Shown here piece after piece: positions 40,193-48,924 of a DNA stretch of 64,000 nt; position 1 is the first letter of the stretch; every line of letters begins with the position of its first letter. The notes beneath the pieces were generated by a model. It worked only from the letters and a program-made list of their open reading frames with translations. It did no database searches and was not told where the DNA came from. Both the position numbers and the translations under genes were made by a program. Source of the DNA: an uncultured Flavobacteriales bacterium. GTDB taxonomy: Bacteria; Bacteroidota; Bacteroidia; Flavobacteriales_D; Crocinitomicaceae. Location: the NCBI GenBank assembly GCA_913054135.1, contig CAJXJK010000010.1, positions 62,001 through 126,000 of the forward strand. The letters are read 5' to 3'.

Positions 40193-40288
40193 ATGATACC
40201 CTAAAAAAGGTATTCTAAAAAGTTAAAACACTGATAAACAGTAGGGAATAATTTAATTTTTTGTTAAATTTATTTAACGGCCACACTA

Positions 40289-40306
40289 TTTTGGCATAGT
40301 TTTCGT
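40289..40306 (+). promoter_or_regulatory. Promoter-like element before LVIVD cassette A
   Basis: TTTTGGCATAGTTTTCGT shares the first ten bases with the element at 36524 and resembles a -24/-12 promoter with a weak -12 half. An alternative reading is a vegetative -7 box (TATTTTG at 40287) with a TTG element upstream. The TAGGGG-N16-CGAC motif of cassette B is absent. Confidence 0.3.
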
Positions 40307-40365
40307 TAGCTTTAATGAACCGGTTAAAATAATGTTTAATTAATATTCACCCAATCACGATAATT

Positions 40366-40881
40366 ATGAAAAAAGCAGGAATTGCATTTTTGGTACTTTG
40401 TACAGCAGGTGTGATGGTATCTTGTGATAAAGACAAGGAGCAAGTTGACGGATGGAAGCCCATCTATTCAACTGAAGCCAACACTGAAACTGTTGAAATG
40501 AAGTCATCAGAGCCACTAGTTAATCCAGGAAGGATTTATGTATATGAAAATTACCTTATGGTAAATGATGAAGGAAAAGGTATTCACATTTACGATAATT
40601 CAAATCAATCTAATCCAACTGAGGTTTCTTTTATTGAAATTCCTGGTAACATGGATTTTTCGGTTAGAAACAACATGATTTATGCTGATAATATTACCGA
40701 CATGGTAATTGTTGACATAACAGATGCTTCTCAGCCGGTATTTAAAAATAGAATAAAGGATATCTTCCCAGTTCAACAATTTCCTGATGATTTCGGACCA
40801 TTTGAGTGTGTAGACGCTTCAAGAGGAACCGTAATAGGATGGGAAAAGACGAAATTAGAAGAACCTAAATGTTTCAGATAA
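40366..40881 (+). CDS. LVIVD-repeat lipoprotein, cassette A gene 1
   Basis: 171 residues. Lipoprotein signal with Cys at residue 20 (GVMVSC). The body has LVIVD-type beta-propeller strands (GIHIYDNSNQSNPTEVSFIEIPG, MVIVDITDASQPVF); a C-terminal Cys lies in EEPKCFR and another in GPFECVDAS. Too short for a whole propeller, so it may pair with the next gene product. It is a close paralog of the gene at 47491, with the same order of neighbours. Anchoring in the outer membrane is expected; the function is unknown. Confidence 0.85.
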   Translation: MKKAGIAFLVLCTAGVMVSCDKDKEQVDGWKPIYSTEANTETVEMKSSEPLVNPGRIYVYENYLMVNDEGKGIHIYDNSNQSNPTEVSFIEIPGNMDFSVRNNMIYADNITDMVIVDITDASQPVFKNRIKDIFPVQQFPDDFGPFECVDASRGTVIGWEKTKLEEPKCFR

Positions 40882-40893
40882 AAAATTAAGACA

Positions 40894-41694
40894 ATGAAAA
40901 AGTTAAGATTAATATTCGCTGGAGCATTCGTATTAGGAGCTTTAGCAAGTTGTGAAAAAGAAGAAGTAACAACAAACGAAGAAGAGGTGCAAGTAATGCC
41001 TACAACTAAAGATCAGGCTAGTTCTGGTTATGGAGGTTCACTTTCACAATTCACTATAGTTGACAATTACTTGTATACTATTGATTACAGAACACTGAAT
41101 ATCTTTTTACTTGATGATGCAGAAAATCCTGCAATGACTGAGTCAATTGATATGGGAGTTGGAATGGAAACTGTATTTGCCGAGAACGGAAGATTGTTCA
41201 TTGGTGCAAATGACGGAGTTCACATTTTTGACATTTCAGATCCAAGATCACCACAAGAAGTTTGTGAATTTGAGCACGTAACATCATGTGACCCTGTTGT
41301 AGCAAATGACAATTATGCATTTGCAACACTGAGAGGTGGAACTGAATGTGGAGGATCTTTAAGTCAATTAGATATCATTGATATTTCTGACTTAGACAAT
41401 CCACAATTAGCTGGAGAACAGTTTTTGATGAATCCTTACGGATTAGGTTTATCAAATGTTGACCCGAACATTCTTTATGTATGTGATGGTTATACAGGTT
41501 TAAAAGCTTTCGATATTTCAACAACAAATTCTTGGAATGTTGACATGGTAATGGAAAAAGGAGATATTGACGCTTTAGATGTAATCTCTGATGCCGACAA
41601 TAACTTAATTGTTTTAACTAGAGGAGGTATCTATCAATATGATGCTACCAACCCAGTTGAATTAGTTGAAAAATCTGTGATTCCAGTTCAATAG
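40894..41694 (+). CDS. LVIVD-repeat lipoprotein, cassette A gene 2
   Basis: 266 residues. Lipobox LASC near residue 20. About four LVIVD repeats follow (TLNIFLLDDAENPAMTES, VHIFDISDPRSPQEVC, LDIIDISDLDNPQLAG, LKAFDIS), forming part of a beta propeller. A conserved pair TSCDPVVAN and RGGTECGGSL could make a disulfide. It is 12 bp after gene 1 and 2 bp before gene 3, a tight operon. Paralog at 48022. Confidence 0.87.
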   Translation: MKKLRLIFAGAFVLGALASCEKEEVTTNEEEVQVMPTTKDQASSGYGGSLSQFTIVDNYLYTIDYRTLNIFLLDDAENPAMTESIDMGVGMETVFAENGRLFIGANDGVHIFDISDPRSPQEVCEFEHVTSCDPVVANDNYAFATLRGGTECGGSLSQLDIIDISDLDNPQLAGEQFLMNPYGLGLSNVDPNILYVCDGYTGLKAFDISTTNSWNVDMVMEKGDIDALDVISDADNNLIVLTRGGIYQYDATNPVELVEKSVIPVQ

Positions 41695-41696
41695 AA

Positions 41697-42431
41697 TTGA
41701 AGAATTTATTGATCATATTTTTAATGTCCTCTTGTGCATCTTTTGCGCAAGAGGATTTTTCTTCTCCTGAAGATTCTCTTGAGTACAATGTATTTAAAGA
41801 GACAGTGCCCTTATGGCGAATGGAGAAGAATTTGAAATTCTCCCCTTTTGATGTGTTTTCTGCAGTTTCGGCTTTAGGAGCAGACTATGAAACAAAAATG
41901 AAACCTGGCCTGCACTTTCAATATGGTGCTGCTTTTATTCCATCATTCATGCAGTTTTTAGTGGGTGGTGATGAAGAGCAGTTTAATTGGATGAATGGAT
42001 ACAAGATTAGATTTGAAAGTCGCTATTTTGTGTTTAATCGAGAAGAACTATACATGTCAGGTGAAGTCGCTTTTAGACATCTCATTATTTCAGATGATAT
42101 TAGAGTTGGAATGGAAGGAGACCCGGATGGAAACAATTTTGCATTCTTTATGAATGAAGAAGCACTCATTCATAGGTTTAATACACATTTCAACATTAAA
42201 ATGGGCTTTCAAAAAGTGCTCGGAGAGTCTATGATTATGGATGTTTTTGCAGGATTAAGTTTTAGAAGAACCAATGTTCTCACTAACACTGAATTCCCTG
42301 AAGGCGGTATTCCACAGGTAACCTGGAACCGATTTAATTGGGACTTATCTGACGGATATAAATTTGGATATGCAACACCAATTGTAGGAATCAGGTTAGG
42401 TTATCATTGGCCGGCTAAAGGGGATATTTAA
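41697..42431 (+). CDS. Outer-membrane barrel-like protein, cassette A gene 3
   Basis: 244 residues. The start is a TTG two bases after the previous stop; the paralog at 48954 supports a start here because the signal peptides align (ending SFAQ). Repeated amphipathic strands (FQYGAAFIPSFM, YKIRFESRYFVF, FRHLIISDDIRVGMEG) suggest a small outer-membrane barrel, like DUF3575-type proteins. Its stop overlaps the stop of the convergent DUF4249 gene (shared TTAA). Confidence 0.8.
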   Translation: MKNLLIIFLMSSCASFAQEDFSSPEDSLEYNVFKETVPLWRMEKNLKFSPFDVFSAVSALGADYETKMKPGLHFQYGAAFIPSFMQFLVGGDEEQFNWMNGYKIRFESRYFVFNREELYMSGEVAFRHLIISDDIRVGMEGDPDGNNFAFFMNEEALIHRFNTHFNIKMGFQKVLGESMIMDVFAGLSFRRTNVLTNTEFPEGGIPQVTWNRFNWDLSDGYKFGYATPIVGIRLGYHWPAKGDI

Positions 42432-43243
42432 TACTGCAAATAAACCGAGTCTACCACTGTACCATAATACAAACCTAAGGTGCCATCATCAAAATAATTT
42501 GGGGGATTTTGGTATTGACTTCCAGTAAACTCACCATTCATAAACACATCTAAACTGCTCAAATATTCTCCGGTTTCTGAAGATAGAGAGTAGCAAAAAA
42601 TCTTGAAAGTACTGCTGCTTAGGCCAATTCCAAAATCCGGAATTACCTCTTCAATTATATAGTGTTCTGAACTAGAATTTCGTACTTCAAATACATCATA
42701 AACGGGATGAGGTAGATGAGACCACATTGAATCGCCGGCTAATACTGAATCTAATTGATAGACCTCTAAACGACACCATTGATCAACATTTGAACTCAGA
42801 GTTAAATCAATATCCAATGAAAGAATGTTATTACTCACAGGGATTTGAGCGTAATAAGCAGATTCAGCAGTAATGGCTGCCGGTATTAAAAAGTCTTTTG
42901 ATCCGCATATTCCTTTGTAGCAGTAATCAATAGTGTAAACTAAACCTGGTATTGCTTGAAACGGAATGAGTGATTGCATGTAATTAGAGTCAACTAGTTC
43001 GAAATCATAGCTGAGCGAATTACCACTTATGGTTGCGCTAATATCCGTCATTGGGTAAATAGAGCTATCACCAATATTATTGGCTAGGCTAACTTTAAAT
43101 GATTGTGTCTCTAAATCACTAGTCAAGAACCCATCAATGATTAGGCGTTCATTGTCATAATCGTTCACGACGAGTATCTCTTCTTTGCTACAAGAGGCAA
43201 GCATCATTAAAGAGAAGACGATATATAAAATAGAGCTTTTCAA
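42428..43243 (-). CDS. DUF4249-type lipoprotein
   Basis: 271 residues. Lipobox LASC at residue 18. The body fits DUF4249 (NERLIIDGFLTSD near the N-terminus, the FKVSLANNIGDSS segment). These lipoproteins regularly accompany TonB-dependent receptors with an N-terminal STN domain in Bacteroidota, in the place that SusD takes in sugar systems. It overlaps the receptor gene by 4 bp (ATGA). It likely caps or assists the receptor; the ligand is not known. Confidence 0.87.
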   Translation of the reverse strand: MKSSILYIVFSLMMLASCSKEEILVVNDYDNERLIIDGFLTSDLETQSFKVSLANNIGDSSIYPMTDISATISGNSLSYDFELVDSNYMQSLIPFQAIPGLVYTIDYCYKGICGSKDFLIPAAITAESAYYAQIPVSNNILSLDIDLTLSSNVDQWCRLEVYQLDSVLAGDSMWSHLPHPVYDVFEVRNSSSEHYIIEEVIPDFGIGLSSSTFKIFCYSLSSETGEYLSSLDVFMNGEFTGSQYQNPPNYFDDGTLGLYYGTVVDSVYLQY

Positions 43244-45834
43244 AATTTAAAGTTGAAGTTCATTATAACTGTTGTAGGAGAGTAATCTTTGCTTATTAAG
43301 CTTAGTTGCGGCCCTCCAACTGAATTTTCATCCAAGTAAACAATTGATGGATTATATCTTCCTAATAAGTTGGTGATGTTCAAGACAATTTCCCAACGGT
43401 TTTTACCTTTTTTAATACCCAGTTTTCTGGTTGCTGAAAAGTCTAAACGTGAAAAATATTCTAATCTATCTGCATTTCGTTCTTCAGGTAATAAAGGAAA
43501 AGCTGTATTACCAATTACATACTGTCCTGTTGGCAAGGTAATGGCTCGGCCCGATTGAAAGTTGTAGTTCGTAGCCAGCTTCCATTTTTGAGATAAGTTG
43601 AAATATTGACTGAAGCTCCAAGCATGAGGCCTATCATTATCTGCAACATATGGGTTGTCATTATTGATTCCTATTACCTTTTGACTGGTAACCGTATACG
43701 TATACGCAATGGTTGCAGAGTACTTTTCAGATGGATTAAACTTTAGCTGACTTTCAAAACCGTAAACAAACAATCTTCCGGACAAAAGATTCCCTTCAAT
43801 TTCTTGAGAAAAAGTACTAACAGGCACGGCAAAATCTACCACATTATTGATATATCTGGCAAATGCAGAAATGGATGTTTCAACTATTTTTTCTCTATGA
43901 AGCCAGCCAATAGAGGTAGAATAATTTCTCTCGGGTTTGAGGAAAGCATTGGAGGTTGTCCAAATTTGAACGGGCAAAAAATTGTTGAGATAACTTACCA
44001 AATGAGTGTGTTGACTGGTGATGCCGATATTCGCAGTAAAATCATTTTTTTTGTTCGGATGATAGGATAAATGAGCTCGTGGGTCAAGACTAAAAAACAA
44101 ATCATAGATCTTATTTTTTTGATAAATGACATTGGTAGATGACAGATCTGAATTTAAGTAGGTGGCGGTATCTTGTTTACCAAAATGAAAAGATAACGGC
44201 GTTCTCAATCCCCCCTTAATACTGAGTTTTTTATTAATCTTTTTATCTACAGAAATGTACACTCCTGCCTCAATGGCGCTTCGTTCTAAAAACAGATCAG
44301 GACTAATGAAATCTTTAGAAGGTTTGATGGTTTGAATCCAATTAATGTCTCCGCCATATTCAATTTTAAGAGAAGGGTCATAGTAATGTGTAAGCTGGTA
44401 TTGAATTTTGTCTTGAGCAACCGACTGTCCAAAATTTGCAATGGTATCGTTTATTGATTCCGCTTGATTGGATATGAAATATTGTGCCGGGTCAACTCTG
44501 TTTACATAATCAAACTGGCTGTGAGTAAAACTCAAATTGGTAAAAGTCTTTGCATTGATAATGTGATTCCACCTAAATGATCCAGCAGCATTTCCCCACT
44601 TAAACAGATTCACATTATTTCTGATTCTATCACGACCATAATAACCCGTAAAATAGATTCTATTATTTGAGTTGAGGTGTATGTTTATTTTACCATTGAA
44701 GTCATGGTAATTTGGGATAACGAAATCAGACTGACTAAATAATTCAAATGCAGTTCTTGGAAAAAATGATTTTCTGATAGATAAATAATAAGATGCTTTG
44801 TTCTTTACGAATGGCCCTTCCAAATTAATTCGCCCACTAGCCGGACTGAATCCTCCACTCAAATGGGCCTTCTCAAGGTTACCCTCATTCGTATTAATTT
44901 GAAGCACAGAAGATGTCCTTCCTCCAAATTTGAGTGGAATAAAATCTTTGTAAAGGTTTGCTGTTTTCACTGCTTCTACATTTACGATTGAGAATACACC
45001 GAGCATATGCGTTGGGTGATAAATAGGCATTTCATCAATAAGAATTAGGTTGTTTCCAGACCCTGAACCGCGAACTTGATAAGATGCGCTTCCGTTTTGA
45101 GTAGGAGTTACCCCTGGTATTTGTTGCACATATTTGAGTATGTCAATCTCACCGGCCGTGGCAGGAATCCTCATCACAGCTTCTTTGGTTAAAATGGTTT
45201 GGTCAGTAGTTGAAATATCAATAGGAGCGGCAGCAAATTTACTGGTATCGGCAAGTACCTCTACGGCATCAAGCATTAAGTTATTCTTGTCAAGATTGAA
45301 GTTTAAAACGAGATCGGCATTTATGTCTATTTCTTCTTGAATCGTAGTCATACCAATTGATGAAATTTTAATGTTCGTTGGCCCTTTGGGTAATTCAATA
45401 GCGAAATAACCATAAGTATTTGTCACACATCCTATTGATAAATTGGGAAAGTAAAGTCTGGCCCCAATGAGCTCTTCTTTAGATTCAGCATCACGTATAT
45501 ATCCGCTTAAAACAAATTCCTTTTTCTCAACAAAGGAGTTATAAAGTGATATTTGACCTCCGATTAATTTGTACTTGATGGTAGTCGCTCCGAACAGATA
45601 ATCAAGAATACTAGAAATGCTTTTTGTCTCAAACTTTTGATTTACTTGACGATCAATAGCATGAAGTTCTTTTGAGTTGTATGAGAAGGTTAAATCGGCC
45701 TCTTTTTCAATTTTGTGAAGGCATTTTTCTAAAGGGATATTCTCGAAATTGACGCTAATCTTTTTCTCAAGGCTTGATTGGCCATAAATTGAGAAGACCG
45801 CAAGTTGGACAAAAAAGAAGAGTACTAATCTCAT
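43240..45834 (-). CDS. TonB-dependent receptor with STN signalling domain
   Basis: 864 residues. Signal peptide (ending SIYGQ), STN domain (about 25-100, VNFENIPLEKCLHKIEKEADLTF in two parts) that contacts FecR, a carboxypeptidase-regulatory-like domain (about 108-190), a plug (about 215-325, IPGVTPTQNGSASYQVRGSG, IDEMPIYHPTH) and a barrel to the C-terminal aromatic residue (NFNFKF). It imports an unknown ligand with TonB energy and should signal its presence to FecR across the periplasm. It follows fecR by 2 bp. Confidence 0.93.
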   Translation of the reverse strand: MRLVLFFFVQLAVFSIYGQSSLEKKISVNFENIPLEKCLHKIEKEADLTFSYNSKELHAIDRQVNQKFETKSISSILDYLFGATTIKYKLIGGQISLYNSFVEKKEFVLSGYIRDAESKEELIGARLYFPNLSIGCVTNTYGYFAIELPKGPTNIKISSIGMTTIQEEIDINADLVLNFNLDKNNLMLDAVEVLADTSKFAAAPIDISTTDQTILTKEAVMRIPATAGEIDILKYVQQIPGVTPTQNGSASYQVRGSGSGNNLILIDEMPIYHPTHMLGVFSIVNVEAVKTANLYKDFIPLKFGGRTSSVLQINTNEGNLEKAHLSGGFSPASGRINLEGPFVKNKASYYLSIRKSFFPRTAFELFSQSDFVIPNYHDFNGKINIHLNSNNRIYFTGYYGRDRIRNNVNLFKWGNAAGSFRWNHIINAKTFTNLSFTHSQFDYVNRVDPAQYFISNQAESINDTIANFGQSVAQDKIQYQLTHYYDPSLKIEYGGDINWIQTIKPSKDFISPDLFLERSAIEAGVYISVDKKINKKLSIKGGLRTPLSFHFGKQDTATYLNSDLSSTNVIYQKNKIYDLFFSLDPRAHLSYHPNKKNDFTANIGITSQHTHLVSYLNNFLPVQIWTTSNAFLKPERNYSTSIGWLHREKIVETSISAFARYINNVVDFAVPVSTFSQEIEGNLLSGRLFVYGFESQLKFNPSEKYSATIAYTYTVTSQKVIGINNDNPYVADNDRPHAWSFSQYFNLSQKWKLATNYNFQSGRAITLPTGQYVIGNTAFPLLPEERNADRLEYFSRLDFSATRKLGIKKGKNRWEIVLNITNLLGRYNPSIVYLDENSVGGPQLSLISKDYSPTTVIMNFNFKF

Positions 45835-45836
45835 AG

Positions 45837-46772
45837 CTAGTTAATAACTACCATTCCATCCTTTTCTTCGGCAGTCACAGAGCAAGTTAAAACAATTATC
45901 TCAATAATTTCTTCATGACTCAACTCTTCAAAATGTGCCGTAAGCAGCTTATTCTTTGCCTCTTCACTATTCGCACCAAACATAATTTGCTTTTCATGAA
46001 AAGTGTTTAGTTCTTGAATGACTTGTTCTAACCTTATTCCTTCAAAGTCAAAAACGCCTGTTTTCCATGAGAAATAGTTTGCTTCAACCTCTGTTACTTT
46101 TGAAATTTCATTTGCACTAGCTGTTGCAGCCTCACCTTGTCTTAATTTAATCTCGACAATTTTATTTCTTAGAGCAACAAGACCATGCTCAACCAAAACC
46201 GTGGTGCTATCTTTTGAAGCTTGAATTGTAAATGCAGTTCCTAGAACTTCAATCTCACCTGCCTTGGTAGTAATCACAAATGGATGTGCTTCGTCTCTGT
46301 GAACTTCAAAAAATGCCTCACCACTCAATTCAACATCTCTATTTTCATTAAAATCTTCAGGGTATGTGATCTCAGCATTTGATGCCAAATATATTTCAGT
46401 ACCATCAGGTAAATCAACCTGCATTGTTTCTGCAGTTTCGTTTGCAACAGTGATCATACCATCACCACCAAAAAAATTAAAAGCAGTTATTGCTATTAAG
46501 GCAGTCACGCAAGCAGCAATTGCAGTTTTCCAAAAGCCGTTTAGTTTGAATACTTTGCCCTCAGTTTCTTCTTCAATTTGGTCATCTATTTTGCTCCAAG
46601 CCGTTTTAGCATCATAGTTTTTGGTGCTGGGTTCTAAACTAACATCCCATGCAGATGCAATGAGCTTGTATTCATCCTCATTTTCAGCTTTCCAGTCAAG
46701 AACTTGTCGCTCTTCTTCTGGACTTGCTTCGCCTGCAAAATGCTTTGCTAATATGTCGTCAAACTCTGTCAT
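45837..46772 (-). CDS. FecR-type anti-sigma factor
   Basis: 311 residues. Cytosolic anti-sigma N-terminus (HFAGEASPEEERQVLDW), one membrane helix (about 83-104, AIAACVTALIAITAFNFF), the periplasmic FecR domain (TMQVDLPDGTEIYLASNAEI, GEAFFEVHRDEAHPFVI) and a C-terminal STN-like DUF4974 (FDFEGIRLEQVIQELNTFH). It should hold the sigma factor encoded just upstream until the receptor signals. The gene has its own ECF-type promoter motif in the 33-bp gap. Confidence 0.94.
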   Translation of the reverse strand: MTEFDDILAKHFAGEASPEEERQVLDWKAENEDEYKLIASAWDVSLEPSTKNYDAKTAWSKIDDQIEEETEGKVFKLNGFWKTAIAACVTALIAITAFNFFGGDGMITVANETAETMQVDLPDGTEIYLASNAEITYPEDFNENRDVELSGEAFFEVHRDEAHPFVITTKAGEIEVLGTAFTIQASKDSTTVLVEHGLVALRNKIVEIKLRQGEAATASANEISKVTEVEANYFSWKTGVFDFEGIRLEQVIQELNTFHEKQIMFGANSEEAKNKLLTAHFEELSHEEIIEIIVLTCSVTAEEKDGMVVIN

Positions 46773-46781
46773 TTATTATAA

Positions 46782-46811
46782 TGTCGTCTTCTAAATCAAA
46801 TACCCCTATCC
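46782..46811 (-). promoter_or_regulatory. ECF-type promoter motif 1, before fecR
   Basis: On the minus strand ATAGGGGTATTT, with GGGG at 46806-46803, then 16 nt, then CGAC at 46786-46783. The TAG of TAGGGG is the sigma gene stop codon. The same two blocks at the same spacing occur at 47434 and 48895. Confidence 0.65.
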
Positions 46812-47333
46812 AAAAAAGATAAAAATTAATAATGCCATTAAAGCCGGGTTCTTTTTCAGCTTTTCTCTCAAATGCTTAAATGCCCTTCCCATTTGGTTTT
46901 CTACCGTTTTTGGAGATATCTCTAAGCTCTCTGCAATTTCTTTATAACTCAATCCGTCTAGCTTAGACATCATGAATACTTCTTTGGTTTTTTCAGGAAG
47001 TTCAGAAATAGCCTTATGTAATAACTGTTTCATTTCATCCTGATTATCTTCTACCTCTTCAGTATGAGACTGCTCATGAATTGCTTCGGCTTCATACTTT
47101 CTCTTCACTACTAATTTTCTTTGAAAATCAATGCACTTGAATTTTACCGCTCTGATGAGGTAATTTTCAAAATTGGCCGTGATACTTTCTTTATCCTCTT
47201 TTTTCCAAAAATCAACAAATACAGTTTGAACAACATCTTCTGCTTCATCATGATCTTGAACAATGGCAAAAGCATATCTACACATTTTTGAATAATGCGT
47301 CTCAAATAATATTTGGTATTCCTTTTTTGTCAT
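46806..47333 (-). CDS. ECF sigma factor (FecI-like)
   Basis: 175 residues. Region 2 (ETHYSKMCRYAFAIVQDHDEAEDVVQTVFVDFW, split across residues 11-43) and region 4 (LPEKTKEVFMMSKLDGLSYKEIAESLEISPKTVENQMGRAFKHL, residues about 113-156) are both present. A hydrophobic C-terminal tail (MALLIFIFFG) is usual for Bacteroidota FecI-like factors. It is divergent from cassette B across 157 bp. Targets are predicted from the motif shared by three sites nearby. Confidence 0.94.
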   Translation of the reverse strand: MTKKEYQILFETHYSKMCRYAFAIVQDHDEAEDVVQTVFVDFWKKEDKESITANFENYLIRAVKFKCIDFQRKLVVKRKYEAEAIHEQSHTEEVEDNQDEMKQLLHKAISELPEKTKEVFMMSKLDGLSYKEIAESLEISPKTVENQMGRAFKHLREKLKKNPALMALLIFIFFG

Positions 47334-47433
47334 TTCTGGATTCTCTCAAATCTAAAAAGATATTCTTACATGAGTTCACGTAACAAATTACTTTAAGGTT
47401 GATTAACAAAACTCAATTCTTTTTCGTGCGGAG

Positions 47434-47462
47434 TAGGGGTATTCAATTTAGCCTTCGACTTA
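47434..47462 (+). promoter_or_regulatory. ECF-type promoter motif 2, before LVIVD cassette B
   Basis: TAGGGGTATTC with GGGG at 47436-47439, 16 nt, CGACTTAAG with CGAC at 47456-47459. It lies about 30 nt before the ATG at 47491 and shares TAGGGGTATT and ATTTAG with the fecR site. Confidence 0.65.
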
Positions 47463-47490
47463 AGGGTGAATATTAACAAAAAAAGATAGT

Positions 47491-48009
47491 ATGAAAAAAA
47501 CAACAATGATATTGCTCGCGCTTGCTAGTGTGACAATTCTAGCTTCTTGTGACAAGCATGAAGACAAGGAAGTGGATGGATGGAAACCAATCTATTCTAC
47601 TGAAACGAATACTCAAGATGTGACATTTAAGCAATCTGAGCCTTTAGAGAATCCGGGTAGAATTTACACTTACGATAATCTCTTATTGGTAAATGATGAG
47701 GCAAAAGGGATTCATATTTATGATAATTCAAATGTGACGAATCCAACTGAGCTTTCATTTATTGAGATTCCAGGCAATATGGATTTCTCTGTTAGTAACG
47801 GAAGACTATATGCCGATAATATCACTGACATGGTTGTGATAAATATTTCAAATCCTTCGGCTCCTGAATATGTGAACAGAATTGAATCTATTTTTCCTGT
47901 TCAGCAATTCCCAGATGAGTTTGGTCCATTTGAATGTGTTGATGCTTCAAAAGGAAGTGTTGTAGGTTGGGAAAGAACCAAATTAATTGAACCTAAATGT
48001 TTCAGATAA
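47491..48009 (+). CDS. LVIVD-repeat lipoprotein, cassette B gene 1
   Basis: 172 residues. Lipobox LASC near residue 20. It shares long segments with the cassette A copy, including VDGWKPIYST, LVNDEAKGIHIYDNSN (near-identical), IEIPGNMDFSV, YADNITDMV and GPFECVDAS; the C-terminal PKCFR is also kept. Preceded by the ECF-type motif, so it is probably expressed with the receptor operon. Outer-surface or periplasmic placement by lipid anchor is expected; its ligand or partner is not known. Confidence 0.86.
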   Translation: MKKTTMILLALASVTILASCDKHEDKEVDGWKPIYSTETNTQDVTFKQSEPLENPGRIYTYDNLLLVNDEAKGIHIYDNSNVTNPTELSFIEIPGNMDFSVSNGRLYADNITDMVVINISNPSAPEYVNRIESIFPVQQFPDEFGPFECVDASKGSVVGWERTKLIEPKCFR

Positions 48010-48021
48010 AAAATAGAAATT

Positions 48022-48822
48022 ATGAAGAAGTATTATAAAACATTAGCTGCAGCATTTTTGTGTGTCACAATCATTGCTTGCGAGAAAGAAGAAATTGAAA
48101 TGAACCCTGATCAATCTGACCAATCAGAAACGATCATTCAAAATAAATCAGCAGAAGTTGGTGGTGTAGGAGGTTCATTAGCACAATTCACAATTGTAGA
48201 TGGTTACCTATATACAATTGATTACAAAACATTAAACATCTTTGATTTATCAAACCCTGATGCTCCTGCTCAAACTGAGTCTATGGCCATGAGTGTTGGT
48301 ATGGAGACTGTTTTTCACCAAGACGGAATGTTATATATCGGTTCTAATACTGGAGTAAGAATTCTTGATATTTCAGATCCTATTAGACCTGTTGAGGTTT
48401 CAGAATTTGATCACGTAACGACATGTGACCCTGTAGTTGCAAACGGAGAAATTGCCATAGCAACATTAAGAGGTGGAACTGAATGTGGTGGAAACCTAAG
48501 TCAGCTAGACGTGATTGATTTAAGTAATATTCATAACCCTGAGTTAATTGGAGAATTTGAATTAGTTAATCCTTACGGTTTAGGATTTTCTGCAACTCAA
48601 AGCAATTACATTTATGTATGTGATGGTTATTCAGGATTAAAAGTGTTTGATATTTCAAATCCTTCAAATCCTGTTCTGAGCAAATCTTATGAGAATATTG
48701 AAGCGCTTGATGTTATTTCATCTCAAGATGGATTGATTGTATTAGGACGTGACGGAATCCACCAATTTGATGGAACCGACCCTTTAAACATTATTGAAAA
48801 GTCTGTGATCACAGTACAATAG
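48022..48822 (+). CDS. LVIVD-repeat lipoprotein, cassette B gene 2
   Basis: 266 residues, same length as its cassette A paralog. The lipoprotein signal ends in IIAC. Four LVIVD repeats are clear (LNIFDLSNPDAPAQTES, VRILDISDPIRPVEVS, LDVIDLSNIHNPELIG, LKVFDISNPSNPVLS), and the TTCDPVVAN / RGGTECGGNL cysteines are conserved. It is 12 bp after gene 1, exactly as in cassette A. A terminator follows. Confidence 0.88.
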   Translation: MKKYYKTLAAAFLCVTIIACEKEEIEMNPDQSDQSETIIQNKSAEVGGVGGSLAQFTIVDGYLYTIDYKTLNIFDLSNPDAPAQTESMAMSVGMETVFHQDGMLYIGSNTGVRILDISDPIRPVEVSEFDHVTTCDPVVANGEIAIATLRGGTECGGNLSQLDVIDLSNIHNPELIGEFELVNPYGLGFSATQSNYIYVCDGYSGLKVFDISNPSNPVLSKSYENIEALDVISSQDGLIVLGRDGIHQFDGTDPLNIIEKSVITVQ

Positions 48823-48841
48823 TTAGTTTTTCAGCTACTGT

Positions 48842-48880
48842 AAACCGTCTCAGCTCTCCTGAGACGGTTTTTTTTTGATT
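48842..48880 (+). terminator. Rho-independent terminator inside cassette B
   Basis: Stem AAACCGTCTCAG / CTGAGACGGTTT with a 5-nt loop and a long T run. It separates genes 2 and 3 of cassette B; no such hairpin exists in cassette A, where the genes are 2 bp apart. Confidence 0.88.
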
Positions 48881-48894
48881 TTTTTTTCGATTGG

Positions 48895-48924
48895 ATAGGG
48901 GGGGTCGATTTTAAGATCGACTTA
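48895..48924 (+). promoter_or_regulatory. ECF-type promoter motif 3, before cassette B gene 3
   Basis: GGATAGGGG with GGGG at 48898-48901, 16 nt, CGACTTAAG with CGAC at 48918-48921. Same blocks and spacing as the sites at 46782 and 47434; it lies about 30 nt before the ATG at 48954. Confidence 0.62.

Follow-up and report, generated by a model that had tools for sequence, protein, structure and literature searches.

For many extracytoplasmic function (ECF) sigma factors of Bacteroidota, neither promoter nor regulon is known; in Bacteroides thetaiotaomicron, according to the available part of PMC12596196, 39 of the 50 factors were repressed singly to find their targets. In this study we focus on a stretch of 64,000 nucleotides (nt), hereafter the window, from an uncultured marine Flavobacteriales bacterium of the Crocinitomicaceae (assembly GCA_913054135.1, contig CAJXJK010000010.1, positions 62,001 to 126,000, forward strand), in which the motif TAGGGG-N16-CGAC, two blocks separated by 16 bases, stands three times around a gene for a FecI-like ECF sigma factor. 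One copy precedes fecR, the first gene of a fecR-TonB receptor-DUF4249 operon, and the two others lie in a divergent group of three genes, cassette B, before the LVIVD lipoprotein gene B1 and the barrel gene B3. Are these sites promoters of the neighbouring sigma factor, and which genes would it then control? We consider it very probable that all three are promoters of one ECF sigma factor, the product of 46806-47333.

The motif and its link to the sigma gene

The initial annotation of the window had pointed to three copies of the motif. A search of the 64 kb finds exactly three, and none in 100 dinucleotide shuffles; the coordinates first given were two bases off, and the distances from CGAC to the ATG (Table 1) agree with the approximate 10-35 nt then proposed. 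The continuation described as common to two sites is also found, CGACTTAAG following the motif directly at 2 of them. A genome-wide search, which the annotation had called for, returns 4 exact copies in the 4.05 Mb of the window's own genome, 3 of them inside one 2.1 kb piece of the window. Permitting spacers of 13-19 adds no TAGGGG/CGAC match in the window, and with 14-18 permitted in the genome all CGAC matches are N16 (4/4). With two mismatches the window holds 13 sites against a shuffle mean of 12.98, no excess, so only the exact motif is special; with one mismatch the genome gives 24 sites against 72 for a reversed control, and near-matches were therefore left unused. As the window contains two duplicate LVIVD cassettes, A and B, the copies might be thought to be chance remnants of upstream DNA carried along by local gene duplication. 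We give this almost no weight, since the 16-base spacers vary in sequence from site to site, cassette A lacks the motif, the shuffles yield none, and unrelated genes of other genomes carry the site; the counts across genomes oppose it as well.

Those counts come from 200 genomes of the family, in which an orthologue was defined as a match to the sigma factor at E up to 1e-40 and the exact motif was searched in the same 200. An orthologue is present in 10 genomes, the window's own counted, which carry 4, 9, 9, 3, 12, 12, 8, 4, 5 and 11 exact sites (77 in total, mean 7.7), while the 190 genomes without it carry 92 (mean 0.48, maximum 3; any site in 64 of the 190). A rank test of site counts with against without the sigma gene gives p 3.5e-10, uncorrected for relatedness; because relatedness inflates this value, the contrast within genera weighs more. 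In the window's genus (g1), two genomes with the sigma gene have 4 and 9 sites and two without it have 0 and 0; in genus g11, the six with it have 4-12 and the three without have 2, 2 and 0. This suggests that the signal and the sigma factor are kept or lost together among relatives.

Outside this sample, 395 genomes drawn from the class (some of this family) contain one more sigma match better than 1e-40, in G564, with 43% identity and no TAGGGG-N16-CGAC promoter after its stop codon. Four distant cassette homologues, L190 (Bacteroidales UBA6267), L191 (Chryseolinea serpens), L192 and L193, lack the motif (0/4), so the sigma-cassette link looks confined to part of one family; the stretches covered for the last three contain no sigma match. 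At 9348-11349 of L190, a distant ECF gene (30% identity) lies divergently beside the distant cassette copy, and the pairing of an ECF factor with a cassette may therefore have arisen more than once.

The position of the sites was analysed for all 77 sites of the ten sigma-bearing genomes, with 22 of the 92 sites from the other genomes as controls, one per genome wherever the motif search had given a locus. By a crude rule, under which a site counts as inside a long open reading frame (ORF) if the 150 or more codons surrounding it are free of stops, 71/77 sites lie outside long ORFs against 5/22 controls; in addition, 66/77 against 3/22 are followed, within 250 nt, by the ATG of an ORF of at least 70 codons. 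Moreover, position 34 of the motif, nine bases past CGAC, is a purine in 60 of the 62 intergenic sites that do not precede fecR, and a pyrimidine-purine pair falls there in 48 of these 62, a signature that 0 of 2000 shuffles reach. The controls have the purine in 7/22 and the pair in 2/22, the six sites inside ORFs have them in 2 and 1 cases, and all four sites of the window's own genome have the pair. This suggests that the purine is the transcript start, and its assignment as +1 places CGAC at -12 to -9 and TAGGGG at -34 to -29: two blocks near -35 and -10 at fixed spacing, as in ECF-type promoters, counted from a predicted start. A conserved 26-base element of two blocks could also be an operator, the site of a DNA-binding repressor or activator instead of a promoter. 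This seems highly unlikely given the pyrimidine-purine signal fixed nine bases downstream, the -35/-10 geometry, and the fecR site, which fills the 33 nt that separate the sigma stop codon from the fecR start.

The description of the motif as an ECF-type promoter in the initial annotation is thus supported by its position before genes, by the initiator signature and by its co-occurrence with the sigma gene. Its choice of the adjacent FecI-like factor as regulator finds support in the same co-occurrence, in the within-genus contrast and in the two sites of the locus, both retained wherever the sigma gene is: the predicted fecR promoter is at the same place in 10/10 sigma-bearing genomes, and a site precedes the B1 gene in 10/10, exact in nine and variant in G025.

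Several observations weigh against the assignment to this one factor. All ten sigma-bearing genomes are draft assemblies; they represent four genera, one of which accounts for six. Of the 77 sites, 6 lie inside long ORFs, close to the 4.8 expected for ten genomes at the rate of the genomes without the sigma gene. The G127 fecR site is off consensus, its -10 block reading CGAT, and so is the cassette site of G025; G070 contains a second, tandem cassette that is without its own site; and the STN domain of the TonB receptor (PF07660) scores 20.7 bits, below the cut-off of 28.4. A gene for a lipoprotein of 228 amino acids (aa) has the site in six genomes and none in the window's own genome, from which it follows that the regulon differs between species. 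The remaining points concern other sigma factors, and they raise the alternative that the motif is a class of ECF promoter read by another or several FecI-like factors, the neighbouring one being only one of them. The window's own genome has 22 sigma-like matches, this sigma included, and the 21 others could share the sites. A FecI paralogue in G003 (L057, C24) has TAGGGG at its own stop codon, the same place, followed by N16-TGTC, and its recognition helix is nearly the same as ISPKTVENQMGRAF, the region 4.2 helix of the sigma factor, identical in 10/10 genomes; the -35 block is therefore not unique to this sigma. Furthermore, the ten sigma-bearing genomes contain 20 copies of TAGGGG-N16-CGTC, which is somewhat more frequent there; any copy is found in 69/200 genomes. 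Against this alternative, G001 and G002, which have no orthologue, contain 0 CGAC sites despite 23 and 18 sigma-like matches, and the three g11 genomes without the sigma gene have only 0-2. We regard a class of promoter read by another or several factors as unlikely, and prefer the neighbouring sigma factor as the reader.

Sites with CGTC, whose excess is weaker than that of CGAC, were not counted as regulon members. The copy of the FecI-like paralogue in the window's own genome (L056, C5) keeps TTAATTGTCATAA and not TAGGGG.

The sigma-fecR junction and a proposed feedback loop

Table 1. Coordinates of the features discussed (promoters 1-3 are predicted), numbered from the first base of the window
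Feature	Position	Strand	Details
Promoter 1, before fecR	46808-46783	-	exact motif; predicted transcript start 46774; CGAC-ATG distance 10 nt
Promoter 2, before B1	47434-47459	+	exact motif; predicted transcript start 47468; CGAC-ATG distance 31 nt
Promoter 3, before B3	48896-48921	+	exact motif; predicted transcript start 48930; CGAC-ATG distance 32 nt
FecI-like ECF sigma factor gene, 175 aa	46806..47333	-	TIGR02985 Sig70_bacteroi1 151.2 bits, cut-off 126.4; Sigma70_r2, r4_2
TAGATTTG, housekeeping-type -7 box (TAnnTTTG)	47347..47354	-	13 nt before sigma start
fecR, anti-sigma / sigma regulator	45837..46772	-	PF04773 68.2 bits, cut-off 24
TonB-dependent receptor: STN-like N-terminal region, CarboxypepD_reg, plug	43240..45834	-	PF13715 above cut-off; PF07715 31.5 bits, cut-off 23.9
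DUF4249-like protein	42428..43243	-	PF14054 19.7 bits, below cut-off 28.5; same gene order in relatives
B1, lipoprotein like N-terminal part of LVIVD propeller, 172 aa	47491..48009	+	PF08309 20.3 bits against cut-off 20.2, marginal
B2, lipoprotein like C-terminal part of LVIVD propeller, 266 aa	48022..48822	+	PF08309 63.2 bits
Intrinsic-terminator-like hairpin between B2 and B3	48842..48870	+	12-pair stem, T run; 1 found, 0.4 expected
B3, exported small beta-barrel, 249 aa	48954..49703	+	AlphaFold2: 8 strands, mean pLDDT (predicted local distance difference test) 73.2
CACACT-N16-CGTTAG, upstream element before cassette A	40282-40309

The locus combines an ECF sigma factor of the Bacteroidota group, an adjacent FecR-domain protein and a plug-bearing receptor, as FecI/FecR/TonB-receptor systems do, and a FecR homologue adjoins the sigma gene in 10/10 genomes (own counted). 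The model of E. coli FecI itself scores 58 on this sigma, below its cut-off of 185, and FecR_C (PF16344) at the receptor reaches 20.4 bits, below 24.4. An ordinary promoter of the sigma-A type probably drives the sigma gene: TAnnTTTG, which at -12 to -5 is the box of the primary sigma factor in Flavobacterium psychrophilum (PMC9723704, available part), stands 9-18 nt ahead of the sigma start in 10/10 genomes, and TAGGGG-N16-CGAC is absent from the gene's strand within the 150 nt before it in all ten.

At the other end of the sigma gene, the TAG of promoter 1 is the sigma stop codon itself in 9/10 genomes. The fecR ATG lies 9-11 nt past the -10 block in the ten genomes, and a message beginning at the predicted start would carry about one to three bases ahead of that ATG. 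As leaderless messages make up 5.5% in F. psychrophilum (PMC9723704, available part), a near-leaderless fecR would be unusual but not unheard of. In G127 (L161, C105) the assembly shows a frameshift close to the end of the sigma ORF, with the sites retained; this may be either a sequencing error or a recent loss.

These features point to the following circuit as the most likely. The sigma factor would be made from its sigma-A-type promoter and then held by FecR at the membrane, as homology to known FecR proteins suggests. Upon ligand binding by the TonB receptor, FecR would relay the signal and the sigma factor would become active, transcribing fecR-receptor-DUF4249 from the promoter whose -35 block starts in its own stop codon; more receptor and more of its own regulator would therefore be made. 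The active sigma factor would also transcribe the divergent B1-B2-B3 genes, for two propeller lipoproteins and a small barrel, with B3, which lies behind a terminator-like hairpin in the window's own genome, read from its own copy of the motif. In relatives, this factor would act at as many as about ten additional sites, most of them ahead of genes for exported proteins.

Two LVIVD cassettes with different upstream elements

In 10/10 loci checked, the B1 product lines up with the first part of single-chain LVIVD proteins and the B2 product with the second; the single-chain proteins compared are open frames of 414-476 aa. When B1 is modelled as read through into B2, the predicted template modelling score is 0.74 and the mean pLDDT 76.1, with a junction stretch of low confidence, and the model matches beta-propellers such as BamB (best E 3e-9, template modelling score about 0.5, high root-mean-square deviation). 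B1 and B2 are thus probably two lipoproteins that complete one LVIVD beta-propeller; A1-A2 of cassette A (40366-41694) likewise look, as do B1-B2 (47491-48822), like one LVIVD propeller lipoprotein split over two genes, each with a lipobox. B3 has no Pfam match, and its model gives 594 matches in the PDB at E up to 10, none of them at E 0.001 or better. A specific identity for B3 was dropped, as these matches support a generic barrel only. The module encoded by cassette B may have a role in surface binding or assembly.

The cassette and the sigma gene need not be immediate neighbours: in G059 they are 28 kb apart on one contig, with the motif at both. G001 and G002 have cassettes but no sigma gene, and the motif is missing from these cassettes; in G135 the B1 gene is cut by the contig end. 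Among the loci of relatives that were examined, none has the motif between B2 and B3, where promoter 3 stands in the window; the simplest reading is that B3 stayed in the regulon by gaining its own promoter behind the hairpin.

The paralogous cassette A (40366-42431) has no TAGGGG-N16-CGAC, and the same is true of the A copy of G003. It is preceded by another two-block element, CACACT-N16-CGTTAG, which also precedes the cassettes of G001 and G002, and of which the G003 A copy has a variant (CACACG, CGTTAA); CACACT-N16-CGTTA is single-copy in the window's own genome. From these four sequences, the element may be the promoter of another alternative sigma factor, and cassette A appears to be outside the sigma regulon. 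The proposal in the initial annotation that the LVIVD lipoproteins and the barrel share the regulon of the TonB receptor is thus supported for cassette B only, the motif being missing at cassette A. A tree of the cassettes groups the B copies of the window and of G003 (98) and leaves the order among the A copies open (38 and 45); which way the promoter changed is therefore a matter of inference.

With confidence a little above even, we put these elements together as a single picture. The sigma stop codon would form the first half of the -35 block through which the factor drives its own regulator, and the anti-sigma/receptor transcript would be near-leaderless, starting about two bases before fecR, so that the feedback loop would be hard-wired in the 36 nt from stop to start codon. 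The sigma gene would itself stay on a housekeeping promoter and the circuit would control a split propeller and a barrel, one copy of the module having left it after duplication by way of CACACT-N16-CGTTAG.

Known systems and further sites

The E. coli system, as described in the available part of PMC9249621, likewise unites a FecI-like ECF sigma factor, FecR and a TonB receptor in one locus; its sigma gene is read by the primary sigma factor and is not self-activated, which we predict here also, and FecI acts at the promoter of the receptor, as is predicted here before fecR-receptor. Two differences stand out. In E. coli, fecI and fecR are transcribed together from the fecI promoter, whereas here a predicted promoter of the sigma's own type lies between the two genes, starting in the stop codon; and FecI has a single promoter, before fecA, whereas relatives of the present genome carry the site at many distant genes. 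In F. psychrophilum, the motif SM6 (PMC9723704, available part) is likewise a flavobacterial promoter class whose -10 box is of the CG type and is attributed to ECF factors; its box is CGT and precedes type IX secretion system (T9SS) genes among others, whereas ours is CGAC with TAGGGG 16 bp upstream, and unlike for SM6, co-occurrence singles out one sigma factor here. The B. thetaiotaomicron factors SigW-1 and Das1/Das2 with Dma1/Dma2 are also ECF factors tied to surface or envelope functions (PMC12596196, PMC13088901, both in their available parts); the Dma anti-sigma factors span both membranes, which we count as a difference, and the motif tried for SigW-1 reportedly lacked significance. 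Neither TAGGG nor GGGG occurs as a string in the available part of PMC12596196.

Single-chain LVIVD lipoproteins (PF08309) are one protein, whereas here the presumed propeller is split over two lipoprotein genes, with a barrel gene after them; choice-of-anchor B (TIGR04312) is a distant relative, matched here far below its cut-off. For ten genomes our comparison puts forward a sigma factor along with the promoter, transcript starts and genes that would belong to it. It also places a group of LVIVD lipoproteins in a proposed regulatory setting and presents a possible case of a duplicated operon with a changed promoter.

By a simple rule of hydrophobicity and lipobox, the products of 52 of the 57 genes with a site other than fecR look exported, against 59/103 nearby ORFs. 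Pfam was run on 49 of the 57 products, seven B1 homologues and one short ORF being left out. Among the families listed (25 of 42) are T9SS sorting tails (6), DUF1800 (3), PAD_porph (3), TonB receptor barrels (2) and SprB repeats (2). The gene of the 228-aa lipoprotein has no site in G002. In the window's own genome the predicted exact-motif regulon is small, comprising the fecR-receptor operon, B1-B2, B3 and one unexplained ORF of 77 codons. This ORF follows the fourth exact site (C16:23507-23532), which is intergenic, has the start signal and lies about 4 kb from another ECF gene.

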